Translations under genes and position numbers: made by a program
Shown: positions 1,731-49,913 of the stretch, in pieces
Layout of the letters: each line of letters begins with the position of its first letter
Position numbering within the stretch: position 1 is the first letter of the stretch
The notes under the pieces: generated by a model
Told to the model about the DNA's origin: nothing
Seen by the model: only the letters and a program-made list of their open reading frames with translations
The model's database searches: none
Assembly (NCBI GenBank): GCA_947628535.1
Contig: CANRAF010000007.1
Span: 1 to 51,119, forward strand
Reading direction: 5' to 3'
Source of the DNA: an uncultured Bacilli bacterium
GTDB lineage: Bacteria > Bacillota_I > Bacilli_A > RF39 > UBA660
Length of the DNA: 51,119 bases

Positions 1731-1794
1731 ATAGAACACAATTTGCTTTTTTTAATTTATAAATATATAATTGAATAAAATAAAGGAGATTTTT

Positions 1795-3762
1795 ATGAAA
1801 GAGAATAAAAAGAAAATAGTAATCTTTATATCAATTATTTTAATATTACTTGTGTTTTTAGCAATTTGTTTTATTACAGATAGTATGTATAAAAATGATA
1901 ATTTAATAAAAACAAAAGAAAGTTTAATTACGAAGCAATATTTATTAGAGAAAAATTTTAATACATCAGGTTATACTATTGAAAACCCTAATATTATACT
2001 TGATCCATATGATAACTCTCCCCTATCAGCTTTAATTTTATTTGAAACTGATATTAAAGTGAGTCCAAAAGTTATAATTGAAGGTAAGGATAAATTATCA
2101 ACATATACTCATGAATTTGAAAAAGAAAAAGAGCATTATTTACCTATATATGGCCTTTATCCTAATAAAGAAAATAAAATTATAATAAAATATGATGAAA
2201 ATGGTAAAAGTATAAAAAAAGAAATCACTATTAAGACTTCTGAACTGCCTAAAGATTTCATTTTACCTACAAGTGTAAAAAAAGAAGAGCTTAAACTTTC
2301 TAATGATTTATACTTTTTCACACCTTCCAGTAAAGGATATACATGTGCCTATGATGTAAATGGAGATGTAAGATGGTATTTAAAAAATTATGCTTTATGG
2401 GATAATACTAGACTTAAAAATGGACATATATTAATAAGTACAGAAAGAAGAGTTAATACACCATATTATATGAGTGGATTATACGAAATTGATATGCTTG
2501 GAAAAATATATAAGGAATATAGCCTTGAGGGAGGCTACCATCATGATTATTTTGAAATGGAAAATAGTAATCTTTTAGTAGCCTCAGATGATTTTGAAAA
2601 TGAATATGGTACAGTTGAAGATTATATTGTTGAACTTGATAGAAAAACTGGAAAAGTTGTTAAAACTTTTGATTTAAAAAATATATTAGATATGAAAGAT
2701 ACTGGGAATGAAAATTATACATCTTATGATTGGTTTCATAATAATTCTGTTTGGTATGATAAGAAAACAAATTCTATTACTCTATCAGGAAGACATCAAG
2801 ATGCTATTATAAATATTGACTATGAAACTTCTAAAATAAACTGGATTATTGGTGATTCAACTAACTGGAGTGAAAAGTATAAAAAATATTTCTTTAAACC
2901 TATAGGAGATGATTTTGAATTTCAATGGAGTCAGCATGCTGCAATGATTACTCCTGAAGGTTATGTCTTTGTTTTTGATAATGGTAATAATAAAAGTAAA
3001 GATAAAAGTAAATATGTTAAAGCAGAAAATAGTTATTCAAGAGGAGTAATGTATAAAATTGATACAAAAAATATGACTATTAAACAAATATGGCAATATG
3101 GAAAAGATTTAGGAGGAAGTTTTTATTCACCATATATATCAGATGTTGATTATATTTCTAAAGACCATTATATTGTTCATTCTGGAGGAATTGTTTATGT
3201 AAATGGCAAGAATTCTAATCAACCTGCTGGTTTTACAAATAATGCTAAATTAAAATCTGAAACCATTGAACTTTTAAATGATAAAGTTATATTTGATATG
3301 GTTCTTCTAACAAATAATTATAGAATAGAAAAAATGAGTTTATATAGTAAAGACGTTTATAGTCCTGTTAAAGGAGAAAAACTAGGTACTTTAGGGGAAA
3401 CTCAAGTGGATTCTATAAGATATATTCCTTTTTCAAAAATAAATAAAATAGATAACGAATATAAAAAGCATAATATATCATTTGTTAAAGAAGAAGATAG
3501 ATTAGTATTTACAGGACAATTTGTTAAAGATGACGAGGTAAATATTGTTCTTTATAAAAACTTAACATTTAAAAAGTATCATGTAAAAATAAGTAAACAT
3601 CCATATACAGCATTATGTGTCGATGTATTTACAGATGAAGAAAATGAAAATGGTATTGTTGTTAATAAATATATAAATAGTGATGGATTAAATGGTAAAT
3701 ATTCTTTATATCTTGAAATAAATGATAAATTATATGATACTGAAAAAGTAGTGAATTTTTAA
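1795..3762 (+). CDS. Membrane-anchored aryl-sulfate sulfotransferase (ASST family)
   Basis: TM helix then beta-propeller motifs HHDYFEMENSNLLV, YDWFHNNSVWYD, LSGRHQDAIINIDYETSKINWIIGD, QWSQHAAMITPEGYVFVFDNG; SD aaaggag before ATG at 1795. Confidence 0.8.
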   Translation: MKENKKKIVIFISIILILLVFLAICFITDSMYKNDNLIKTKESLITKQYLLEKNFNTSGYTIENPNIILDPYDNSPLSALILFETDIKVSPKVIIEGKDKLSTYTHEFEKEKEHYLPIYGLYPNKENKIIIKYDENGKSIKKEITIKTSELPKDFILPTSVKKEELKLSNDLYFFTPSSKGYTCAYDVNGDVRWYLKNYALWDNTRLKNGHILISTERRVNTPYYMSGLYEIDMLGKIYKEYSLEGGYHHDYFEMENSNLLVASDDFENEYGTVEDYIVELDRKTGKVVKTFDLKNILDMKDTGNENYTSYDWFHNNSVWYDKKTNSITLSGRHQDAIINIDYETSKINWIIGDSTNWSEKYKKYFFKPIGDDFEFQWSQHAAMITPEGYVFVFDNGNNKSKDKSKYVKAENSYSRGVMYKIDTKNMTIKQIWQYGKDLGGSFYSPYISDVDYISKDHYIVHSGGIVYVNGKNSNQPAGFTNNAKLKSETIELLNDKVIFDMVLLTNNYRIEKMSLYSKDVYSPVKGEKLGTLGETQVDSIRYIPFSKINKIDNEYKKHNISFVKEEDRLVFTGQFVKDDEVNIVLYKNLTFKKYHVKISKHPYTALCVDVFTDEENENGIVVNKYINSDGLNGKYSLYLEINDKLYDTEKVVNF

Positions 3763-19371: not shown

Positions 19372-21183
19372 TTATTTTATTATTACACTGGTTCCTATTG
19401 AGGCCTTATTATACAAATAACTTGCAACATTATATGGAAGATTTATACATCCGTGTGAACCATTATATTTATATATAGTTCCTCCAAATTGCCAGCGCCA
19501 TGTAGCATCATGAAGTCCTATTTGATATCCCCTATCTATTAGCATCCAATAATTTACATAACTTCTATAATCAGGCCCTACCAAATAAACTCTTCTTGCT
19601 TTTCCAAGAAGCTTATATGTTCCTTTAGGAGTATCATGTGTTCCTTTTTGTCCTGTTACAACTTTTGATGAAGTAATAAGTTTTCCATTTTTGTAATACC
19701 ACATTTTTTGAGATTTTATTGATATAAGAATATAAGTTGTTTTTGGTTTTTTAACAAATTTAGCAGTATAGGTAAATGATTGAGTTTTATAACGGGTTAT
19801 AACTTTACTTTTACTTATCCTTTTACCATTTGTATACCAACCCTTAAACAGATATCCAGACTTAGGTTTAGCATACATTATATGTTTATGTTTACCTGCA
19901 TTAGTTTTTTGATAATATGATGATACTGTACCACCAGTTCCTGCTTTTATTATAGCAACTCTTTTGGTTTTTCCATAATTATATTTTATATAGGTAGCTG
20001 GATTATTTTTAGCATTTAAAAGCATTAAAGTTTTACTACCAGTAACATATATTTGTTTCATGTTATTGCTATATGCATAAACATATTTTATTTTTGGACT
20101 ATTAACCATATTTAATCTATCTATTTTATTTTTAGATACCGAGATGTATTCAAGTGCTGGGAAGCCATTTATATCAAGTTTTCCATATAAGTTTTTACCA
20201 TTCCAATATATTTTTTTTGCCCTTCCAAGTCCATCACCTATAGAATTTGTATTTTTAGGGAACCATGTTTCTGAAGAACTTGTTTTATAAGATGAATTTA
20301 CTTTTTTACCATTTTTCTTTTTGGCATACGTTTTATTCAAAAATAATGTTATTTTCTTCTTTTCATAAGAACTTGTCAAATATTTAACACTTGTAGAACC
20401 TGGGTAATATGTAAATGCAATATGAGATTTTGATAGAATTTTTACAGACGGATTAAAATATATGTGTTTAAGTTCATCTTTTTGGATAGTGGTATATTTA
20501 ACTCCATCATATATGTTGTAACAATCTGCAAGAGGGTCTATAGTTATCCATTTACCATTTACATAAGCTTGAACCCATCTTGAATTAATAGTAGTTTGAG
20601 TTATATTGCTTCCCCATGTAAGATAATCTTCTCTAGCATTTTTATTATAATAACCTCCTACTTCTCTGGCAGGTATCCCCTCACTTCTAGCAAAAGCAAT
20701 AAGCATAGAAGCATAACCATTACTTCTAGCACGAACTTTTTTATTAATGTCGTATTCATAAGTTAATAGATAATATGGGTTATCGTAGTTTCTTCCTGAA
20801 GAATTTAAAGCATAAATTCTACTTGGTGATGAATAATAATAAAAATTATCAACAATCCAATCATGGAATTTATAAAGTTTTTCTTCATTTGTTAAAGTAG
20901 TATTTCCTTCGAGAATGACATTATCAGCAAAGTTTTGAATTTTAGTTTGTTGCGTCGTTGTAAGAGATTTATAGTTTGTAGCATATAAATCTTTTAGATA
21001 TTTATCTGTATATCTAGCACGGCTAACTGAAGATAGACTAGCAGCACTATTATACATTTGTTGATTTTGAACTTCACGAGATGTAAGAGTTCCATAATTT
21101 TTAGCACTTACTGTTACAGTAGTTAACGCAGTAAAACATAAAAAAAGAGTGAATAAAATTCTAATAAATGTTTTTCTAGCCAT
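19372..21183 (-). CDS. Secreted L,D-transpeptidase (YkuD) with N-terminal transglutaminase-like domain and InlB-B-like repeat
   Basis: Signal peptide (MARKTFIRILFTLFLCFTALTTVTVSA); ARSNGYASMLIAFARSEGIPAREVGGYY; FKGWYTNGKRISKSKVITRY; YkuD motif IGLHDA...GSHGCINLP. SD gggagtg before ATG at 21183. Confidence 0.88.
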   Translation of the reverse strand: MARKTFIRILFTLFLCFTALTTVTVSAKNYGTLTSREVQNQQMYNSAASLSSVSRARYTDKYLKDLYATNYKSLTTTQQTKIQNFADNVILEGNTTLTNEEKLYKFHDWIVDNFYYYSSPSRIYALNSSGRNYDNPYYLLTYEYDINKKVRARSNGYASMLIAFARSEGIPAREVGGYYNKNAREDYLTWGSNITQTTINSRWVQAYVNGKWITIDPLADCYNIYDGVKYTTIQKDELKHIYFNPSVKILSKSHIAFTYYPGSTSVKYLTSSYEKKKITLFLNKTYAKKKNGKKVNSSYKTSSSETWFPKNTNSIGDGLGRAKKIYWNGKNLYGKLDINGFPALEYISVSKNKIDRLNMVNSPKIKYVYAYSNNMKQIYVTGSKTLMLLNAKNNPATYIKYNYGKTKRVAIIKAGTGGTVSSYYQKTNAGKHKHIMYAKPKSGYLFKGWYTNGKRISKSKVITRYKTQSFTYTAKFVKKPKTTYILISIKSQKMWYYKNGKLITSSKVVTGQKGTHDTPKGTYKLLGKARRVYLVGPDYRSYVNYWMLIDRGYQIGLHDATWRWQFGGTIYKYNGSHGCINLPYNVASYLYNKASIGTSVIIK

Positions 21184-21455
21184 TTTATCACTCCCTTTAT
21201 TATAGTTATTATATCTATATTTATAATATATTATATTAAGGGTTTTTGTCAATTAAAAGTATTTTTCTGTGTAAAATATAGACAAATTTTTATTTATTAT
21301 TCGGTTGTTATTACAAAACAAGTTGAAAACAATTTACTAGCGTCTTCAAATTCAAATGCTATGAAAAATAATCTTTCCCTTTTGAGACATTAATTATATC
21401 AACCAAAAATAAACTAATATATCTCACCATTTGAAAAGAAATTTAGGCATGAAAA

Positions 21456-47907: not shown

Positions 47908-49230
47908 ATGAAATATATTTTAATTCTTATGGGAAAAATCGTTGCTTTTTTGTGTAAACTTATAGGACGTGGTAGTAATTTTCCTGGAGAATTTGTTAGT
48001 ATTTTTGATAAAAATATTTTAAAGAAATTCCGTTTACCTAAAAAAGTTATTGTAGTAACTGGTTCTTCTGGAAAAGGCTCTACTACGAGAATTATTGCAA
48101 ACGTCTATAAAATGTTTGGGTTTAAAGTTGCTTATAATAAAGAAGGTGGAAATCAAACTGCTGGAGTTATAACAACACTTTTAAAAAATTGTACTTTGGG
48201 AGGGAAAGTTAAAACTGATGTTGTCGTTTTAGAAATGGATGAAAGATATATTAAATATGTTCTTCCTATCATTAATCCAAGTGATGTTGTAATTACTAAT
48301 ATTACAAGAGATCAACCTCCAAGACAAAGACATACTGATTTTATAACAAGTGAAATTAAGAAAGGTCTTAGTGAAAACATGCATCTTTATCTAAATGCTG
48401 ATGATCCGGGAATTCAAAAATTTGCTTTAAATGTAAAAAATAAAATTACTTATTACGGAATAAGTAAATTAAAAACTTCTTATAAAAATAATTTATTTGT
48501 AGCATTAAATAGTCCAAGGTGTATAAAATGCCATAGTAAATTAAATTATGATTTTTATCACATTGAAGATTTAGGGAACTTTAAATGTTCAAATGATAAA
48601 TGTGATTTCAAAACTCCTAAAAAGGATTATGAGGTTACTGATTTTAAAGATAAAACTATTACTATTGAAAAGAATAAAATAATTCTAGAAAATGATATGT
48701 TGTATAATATTTATAATACCCTTGCAGCCTACAGTGTATTAAGAGAAGCAGGATTAGATAAAAATAAAATATGTGAGTATATATCAAATTTAAATAAAGA
48801 TAAAAAAATATTTAATAGATATACCCTTAATGATAGAGAGGTATTTGTTTTAAATAATAAATGTGAAAATTCATCAACATATAATCAATCAATGCTTTAT
48901 ACTTATAATGATAAAGGTAAAAAGACTATTGTAATAGGATGGCAAGAAATATCAAGACGTTATCTTTGGGATGAACTTTCTTGGCTTTACGATGTTCAGT
49001 TTGAACTTTTAAGTGATCAAGATATTGACTCTATAATTGTTGCGGGTCCTCAGAGGTATGATATTGCTGTTAGACTTAAGTATGCAAAAATAGATGAGAA
49101 GAAAATTAAAATTCATAATGATTTATATGATGCTAAAGAAGATTTATTAAAATCAAAAGGTTCAATCTATGCTATTTTAAATTTTGATTATGTTAATGAT
49201 TTTAATAGAGTAATGGAGGATTTGAAATGA
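47908..49230 (+). CDS. Divergent MurT-like Mur ligase family protein
   Basis: VTGSSGKGSTTRIIANVYKMFG, YNKEGGNQTAGVITTLL, VVITNITRDQPPRQRHTD, LNADDPG, CIKC...CSNDKC zinc ribbon, C-terminal DUF1727-like SWLYDVQFELL. SD agaggtg before ATG at 47908. Confidence 0.82.
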   Translation: MKYILILMGKIVAFLCKLIGRGSNFPGEFVSIFDKNILKKFRLPKKVIVVTGSSGKGSTTRIIANVYKMFGFKVAYNKEGGNQTAGVITTLLKNCTLGGKVKTDVVVLEMDERYIKYVLPIINPSDVVITNITRDQPPRQRHTDFITSEIKKGLSENMHLYLNADDPGIQKFALNVKNKITYYGISKLKTSYKNNLFVALNSPRCIKCHSKLNYDFYHIEDLGNFKCSNDKCDFKTPKKDYEVTDFKDKTITIEKNKIILENDMLYNIYNTLAAYSVLREAGLDKNKICEYISNLNKDKKIFNRYTLNDREVFVLNNKCENSSTYNQSMLYTYNDKGKKTIVIGWQEISRRYLWDELSWLYDVQFELLSDQDIDSIIVAGPQRYDIAVRLKYAKIDEKKIKIHNDLYDAKEDLLKSKGSIYAILNFDYVNDFNRVMEDLK

Positions 49231-49913
49231 AAATAAATGTTTTATGTTTATATTATGATATTATGAATTTATATGGTGATACAGGAAATATTAAAGTATT
49301 AACATATCATTTTGATGAACAAAATATTAAATATAATATTGATTATCTTTCAATTGATGATACTATTGATTTTTCTAAATATGATTTAGTTTTAATTGGC
49401 TCTGGGAATGAAAATAATAGATTTATATGTTTAAATCATTTATTAAAATACAAAAAAGATATAAAAGATGCAATTAATAATGGTACTTTCTTTTTAGTTA
49501 CAGGAAATGCTATTTCTATGTTTGGAGAAAAGTTATATGATAAAGATGCCCTTGGAATATTTAAATTTAAGGTAGAAGAAGCTAAAGAAAGAATTTCTAA
49601 AGAAGTTATTTTAGAAAATAAGATTGTTTCCCCTATTTATGGATTTTTCAATCATCAAGATATAATGTATGGTAATGATAATTTATTATTTAAAGATGAA
49701 GGAATTTTATATAAAAATTTTTATGGTACTTTTACTTTAGGACCATTACTTTCAAGAAATCCTGAATTTTTAGAATATTTTTTAAAAAAGCTAATAAAAC
49801 ATAAAGATAAAAACTTTAAATTCAAAAAAATTAATACTGATTTGAATGTTAAAGCTTATAATCAATTTATAGAATTTAAAAAGACTAAAGTTTTCAATAG
49901 TCATAAGAAATAA
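49227..49913 (+). CDS. GatD-like type 1 glutamine amidotransferase homologue, catalytically degenerate
   Basis: NLYGDTGNIKVL, DLVLIGSGNENNR, GFFNHQD, GTFTLGPLLSRNPEF aligns with GatD; overlaps the murT stop by 4 nt. Confidence 0.82.
   Translation: MKINVLCLYYDIMNLYGDTGNIKVLTYHFDEQNIKYNIDYLSIDDTIDFSKYDLVLIGSGNENNRFICLNHLLKYKKDIKDAINNGTFFLVTGNAISMFGEKLYDKDALGIFKFKVEEAKERISKEVILENKIVSPIYGFFNHQDIMYGNDNLLFKDEGILYKNFYGTFTLGPLLSRNPEFLEYFLKKLIKHKDKNFKFKKINTDLNVKAYNQFIEFKKTKVFNSHKK

Follow-up and report, generated by a model that had tools for sequence, protein, structure and literature searches.

The 51,119-nucleotide stretch of DNA analysed here (the window; contig CANRAF010000007.1 of an uncultured Bacilli bacterium) carries a murT-gatD operon resembling that of the lipid II isoglutaminyl synthase, in which GatD lacks both the nucleophilic cysteine and the catalytic histidine (Cys94 and His189 of Staphylococcus aureus GatD). 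We call such a pair dead and a pair with both residues canonical; the dead pairs fall into three types, A to C, the window pair being of type A. We propose, giving the proposal about an even chance of being right, that the type A pair combines a non-catalytic GatD subunit with a MurT that still acts as an ATP-dependent ligase and whose substrate would not be ammonia split from glutamine but another amine, probably an amino acid, which it would couple to the alpha-carboxyl group of D-Glu.

The window GatD contains the Pfam domain GATase_3. In its phmmer alignment with S. aureus GatD (E 3e-25) the nucleophile segment LTICGGYQFLG is aligned to FLVTGNAISMFG and GTYLHGP lies opposite GTFTLGP, which puts Gly93 in the place of Cys94 and Leu171 in that of His189. 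A preliminary description of this DNA had read both catalytic positions as replaced between retained family motifs, and it was right on both counts. The comparison with the S. aureus structure that it suggested gives the same picture: the predicted model (mean pLDDT 94.8) has the GatD fold, with a template modelling score (TM) of 0.90 to S. aureus GatD (6gs2_A) over the whole chain, and Gly93 sits at the turn between a strand (residues 88-91) and a helix (residues 93-99), where the nucleophile is expected. Neither a cysteine nor a histidine column is conserved among 36 related dead GatDs that were aligned; together with the place of Gly93 in the model this makes an alternative alignment that restores an active-site Cys or His unlikely. 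The TGN motif of the window protein is conserved in most dead GatDs, and most of them lack Q98, Y104, H149 and T153, four residues present in every canonical sequence compared. In S. aureus, the C94G mutant of GatD loses glutamine-dependent amidation but keeps NH3-dependent ligation at pH 8.5 (PMC3266927), and by analogy the window GatD is therefore predicted to lack glutaminase activity, as had been expected. The laboratory mutant has the identical nucleophile replacement; in the window the change is natural and family-wide and is joined by the loss of the histidine and by many further altered positions.

The window's genome (933 kb, 20 contigs) is small and AT-rich and, judged also by its relatives, probably belongs to a gut lineage of uncultured Bacilli. 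It yields exactly two GATase_3 and two MurT_C matches in profile searches. Its second murT-gatD pair, on contig 5 (L003), is of type B and is without the two catalytic residues too (TGDAIEIVG, ATYLIGP). The canonical pair for which the preliminary description had suggested a search was thus not found in this 93.6% complete assembly. Among 98 genomes of the window's family, 39 have a dead pair, some of them counted without residue-by-residue reading, two have a canonical pair (G023 and G044, with ICGG and HGP) and 57 have none; at all inspected loci from other genera Cys94 and His189 are lost as well. A comparison of 88 GatD sequences gave 64 dead proteins, 24 with both residues and none with only one of them. 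This sample includes two reference structures and some loci picked for their similarity to dead pairs, and its ratio is therefore not a prevalence. At the Cys and His positions the 64 dead sequences have Gly/Leu, Gly/Ile, Gly/Val or Gly/Thr and, in two cases, Glu/Arg; these two form type C (IEQGYK, QLRGP; L114:7444-9630 in G124 and L115:6518-8663 in G136). Type B was also present, among the matches listed, in one metagenome-assembled genome (MAG) labelled Erysipelothrix (L146).

A maximum-likelihood tree built from 96 MurT sequences places type A, which includes the window (45 rows, SH-aLRT 98), type C (2 rows, 100) and canonical MurT (32 rows, 99) in separate groups; type B groups together too, with a weak branch tying in the long-branched L067. 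Judged from these sequences, the MurT partners of dead GatDs parted from the canonical proteins long ago and make up clades of their own. A comparison of the two species in the window's genus gives dN and dS (NG86) of 0.22 and 0.72 for gatD and of 0.23 and 1.18 for murT; pseudogene decay is ruled out by dN < dS and by the family-wide conservation of the pair.

MurT and gatD overlap by four bases (ATGA at 49227-49230) in a two-gene operon. The window MurT matches PF08245 (Mur_ligase_M) and PF08353 (MurT_C) above cut-off, aligns with S. aureus MurT at E 3e-51, and its AlphaFold model resembles MurT chains with a TM of up to 0.77 on the query. Residues K59, N85, E108, D110, E111, R138 and K315, and likewise N130 and D134, are kept in canonical, type A and type B MurT, the first seven at a level of at least 85%, and several of these residues have been assigned to ATP, Mg and the acceptor carboxylate (PMC6085368, PMC6113224). 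The window protein has the ATP-site and acceptor residues K59, N85, E108, D110 and E111. What has changed are other motifs. The loop QLDRYGE, which sits at the GatD interface (PMC6085368), reads QPPRNGH in type A and SIKRNAH in type B; KNPxG has given way to KNENxxSYNQ, or to KGQNxxACS in type B, the window reading KCE; and the DNxADG stretch is SRRY in type A, window included. Asp349, the third residue of the triad, is aligned to Glu in the window and is Asp in 93% of type A. Against the NCBIfam equivalog models MurT scores 199 and 157 bits (cut-off 800) and GatD 97 and 76 bits (cut-offs 450 and 400). Since motifs have changed in both proteins while the catalytic residues of MurT are kept, the glutamine side appears to have been remodelled on MurT and GatD alike and the ligase chemistry to have been retained. 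A related genome (G086), which also has a type B operon, contains a type A murT (L068:6307-7533) that has lost the Lys pattern of the P-loop, which reads GTSNKNE; the dead gatD beside it is intact.

The pair thus resembles the MurT/GatD isoglutaminyl synthases of S. aureus, Streptococcus pneumoniae and S. pyogenes in operon structure, GatD fold, Mur ligase middle and C-terminal domains, zinc ribbon, and ATP and acceptor residues, and differs from them in the missing Cys94 and His189, the changed P-loop, GatD-facing loop, KNP and DNAAD motifs, and scores far under the equivalog cut-offs. Cyanophycin synthetase and the pseudomurein peptide ligases are Mur-type enzymes that join amino acids, and show weak sequence and fold similarity, yet they are composed of other domains and lack a dead GatD as partner. 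MurT-like proteins without GatD have been reported from archaea (PMC11915815).

What would a GatD without glutaminase be kept for? Even with ammonia added, S. aureus MurT depends on the GatD protein (PMC3266927). Because of this requirement, and because the C94G complex remains active with ammonia, a dead GatD can act as a structural subunit, which was one of three roles offered in the preliminary description; the others were use of free ammonia and a paralogous complex with a new function, and the last of these fits best. On the reading that we favour, GatD would be a non-catalytic structural subunit and MurT an ATP-dependent ligase that would phosphorylate the D-Glu of a lipid-linked precursor of the wall at its alpha-carboxyl group. 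The activated carboxyl would then be attacked by an amine not derived from glutamine, probably that of an amino acid; we infer the nature of this nucleophile from the company the genes keep and from the remodelling of motifs in MurT. For type B the substrate would be one of two diamino acids, either ornithine or 2,4-diaminobutyrate, and perhaps its D-enantiomer. Such a reaction would furnish position 2 of the stem peptide with a branch or a cross-bridge, as in group B peptidoglycan, to which an ATP-grasp ligase would add a further residue.

This ATP-grasp ligase comes from the gene company of the dead pairs. An ATPgrasp_ST (PF14397) gene is present in 34 of the 39 dead-pair genomes, in 4 of the 59 others and in neither of the two canonical ones (Fisher p 1e-16, which, like the second co-occurrence p-value given below, ignores shared ancestry and is inflated by it); at a stricter threshold the counts are 32/39 and 2/59. 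The gene adjoins murT-gatD or lies one gene off in the loci of five genomes (G074, G039, G293, G466 and G468) and in some loci stands next to a diaminobutyrate (DABA) aminotransferase gene. It was not found at the type C loci of G124 and G136. The window's genome has a separate single copy on contig C14, while about seven further paralogues of ATPgrasp_ST lie in a run on C4 (C4:25016-42927).

The type B pairs are often accompanied by diamino-acid genes as well. An Orr-family racemase or a DABA aminotransferase is found in five of the six type B genomes of the family (the racemase in the window's genome and G086, the aminotransferase in G027, G063 and G087) as against 1 of 92 others (p 5e-7). 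Here and below, arginase, Orr and DABA aminotransferase are names given by homology, the aminotransferase matches lying above the curated cut-offs and the Orr matches of the window's family and the arginase match below them. The racemase gene adjoins the type B pair in the window's genome and in G086, in the latter together with an arginase homologue, and the order at L067 is murT-gatD-racemase-arginase. The aminotransferase gene adjoins the pair in G063 and G087; loci at which the two are neighbours include L066, L069 and, in a Clostridia MAG, L141. Among the matches listed, two type B Clostridia MAGs have an aminotransferase over the cut-off and three a racemase, none having both. The racemase cannot serve as a marker of type B, or of the wall, in general. 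In the class, 86 of 395 genomes match the Orr model, and several of these show in-frame TGA codons and lack a match to MurT; the racemase is therefore not wall-specific.

Several of these observations weigh against the reading that we favour. The diamino-acid genes accompany type B and not the type A of the window, for which the gene company indicates no particular amino acid; 6 of the 16 type B genomes examined have neither racemase nor aminotransferase; the racemase is as widespread in the class as just described; and 5 of the 39 dead-pair genomes are without a detected ATPgrasp_ST gene, in an association whose p-value shared ancestry inflates.

The main rival, which we regard as improbable, is that the glutaminase has simply been lost and that MurT makes D-isoglutamine from ambient ammonia. 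Vertebrate carbamoyl-phosphate synthetase I offers a precedent, being an amidotransferase whose glutaminase domain lacks its Cys and which uses free ammonia; it is however an unrelated synthase, and in the dead pairs the synthase subunit has changed as well. The ammonia-dependent amidation retained by S. aureus MurT/GatD C94G at pH 8.5 speaks for such use, as does the glutamine synthetase gene adjoining the type C locus of G124, but at pH 7.5 no ammonia-dependent activity is seen in S. aureus (PMC3266927). Nor would ambient ammonia explain the switch of MurT to new conserved motifs, the coexistence of two different dead pairs in the window's genome, or the ATP-grasp partner. The free-ammonia role offered in the preliminary description has some probability, but it accounts less well for the altered loop and motifs of MurT and for the ATP-grasp partner.

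Less probable still is that the complex, together with ATPgrasp_ST, acts on another carboxylate, for instance of a wall or capsule glycopolymer. The ATPgrasp_ST family is named after its association with sugar transfer, and the run of paralogues described above lies in the window's genome, on its contig C4. However, the ATP-grasp gene that goes with dead pairs is single, scattered and outside sugar clusters, lying near a murA-like gene in four loci, and the solved MurT-GatD complexes that the pair matches are lipid II enzymes. That GatD has become a sensor or regulatory pseudoenzyme in a pair no longer ligating is very unlikely, for although its pocket residues are replaced rather than kept and the G086 relative lacks the MurT P-loop too, almost every type A and B sequence has an intact MurT ATP site and dN is smaller than dS.

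Should the substrate of MurT be an amino acid in place of ammonia, as we favour, evolution would have made a peptide ligase out of an amidotransferase. In group B peptidoglycan a residue is attached to the alpha-carboxyl group of D-Glu and the cross-link runs between residues 2 and 4 (PMC6721243), and this would be a good fit to MurT, which activates that same carboxylate. No genes or enzyme for the biosynthesis of group B cross-bridges were found in the literature searched, which covered few subscription papers. It is conceivable, and we offer this more tentatively than the ligase function itself, that dead-GatD MurT complexes are the missing starters of group B cross-bridges, placing an amino acid (in type B ornithine or diaminobutyrate) on the D-Glu alpha-carboxyl of lipid II with the disabled glutaminase as obligatory scaffold and the ATP-grasp ligase extending the bridge. 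With an amino acid as the substrate, the pair would be a candidate for the genes that start position-2 cross-bridges, and murT-gatD in a genome annotation could no longer be read as evidence that isoglutamine is made.

Table 1. Coordinates of the type A murT-gatD operon and of its altered motifs in the window
Feature	Position	Strand	Remarks and basis
murT-like gene, type A	47908..49230	+	Mur ligase middle domain, zinc ribbon, MurT C-terminal domain; ATG preceded by AGAGGTGAT
GSSGKG codons	48061..48078	+	P-loop GTNGKT altered, catalytic Lys retained; MurT alignments
RDQPPRQRHTD codons	48307..48339	+	GatD-facing MurT loop, canonical RDQLDRYGE altered; alignments
NKCENSSTY codons	48856..48882	+	replaces canonical KNPAG region; MurT alignments
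EISRRYLWDELSW codons	48946..48984	+	replaces DNAADGRDTSW; MurT alignments
gatD-like gene, type A, without Cys94 and His189	49227..49913	+	228 amino acids; alignments, predicted model
TGNAISMF codons	49500..49523	+	residues 92-99, replaces ICGGYQFL; Cys to Gly93; alignments
GTFTLGP codons	49725..49745	+	residues 167-173, replaces GTYLHGP; His189 to Leu171; alignments

FemAB genes average 1.7 copies in the 41 genomes with MurT, canonical ones included, as against 2.6 in those without (p 0.005), a difference that is suggestive and on which we do not build. No Rfam families were found in the window. Elsewhere in it, a gene at 1771-3762 (+) encodes an arylsulfotransferase (ASST) homologue close to two flavodoxin-like genes, and another at 19372-21252 (-) combines a transglutaminase-like core and an InlB-type repeat with an L,D-transpeptidase (YkuD) domain that has the motif SHGCINL.
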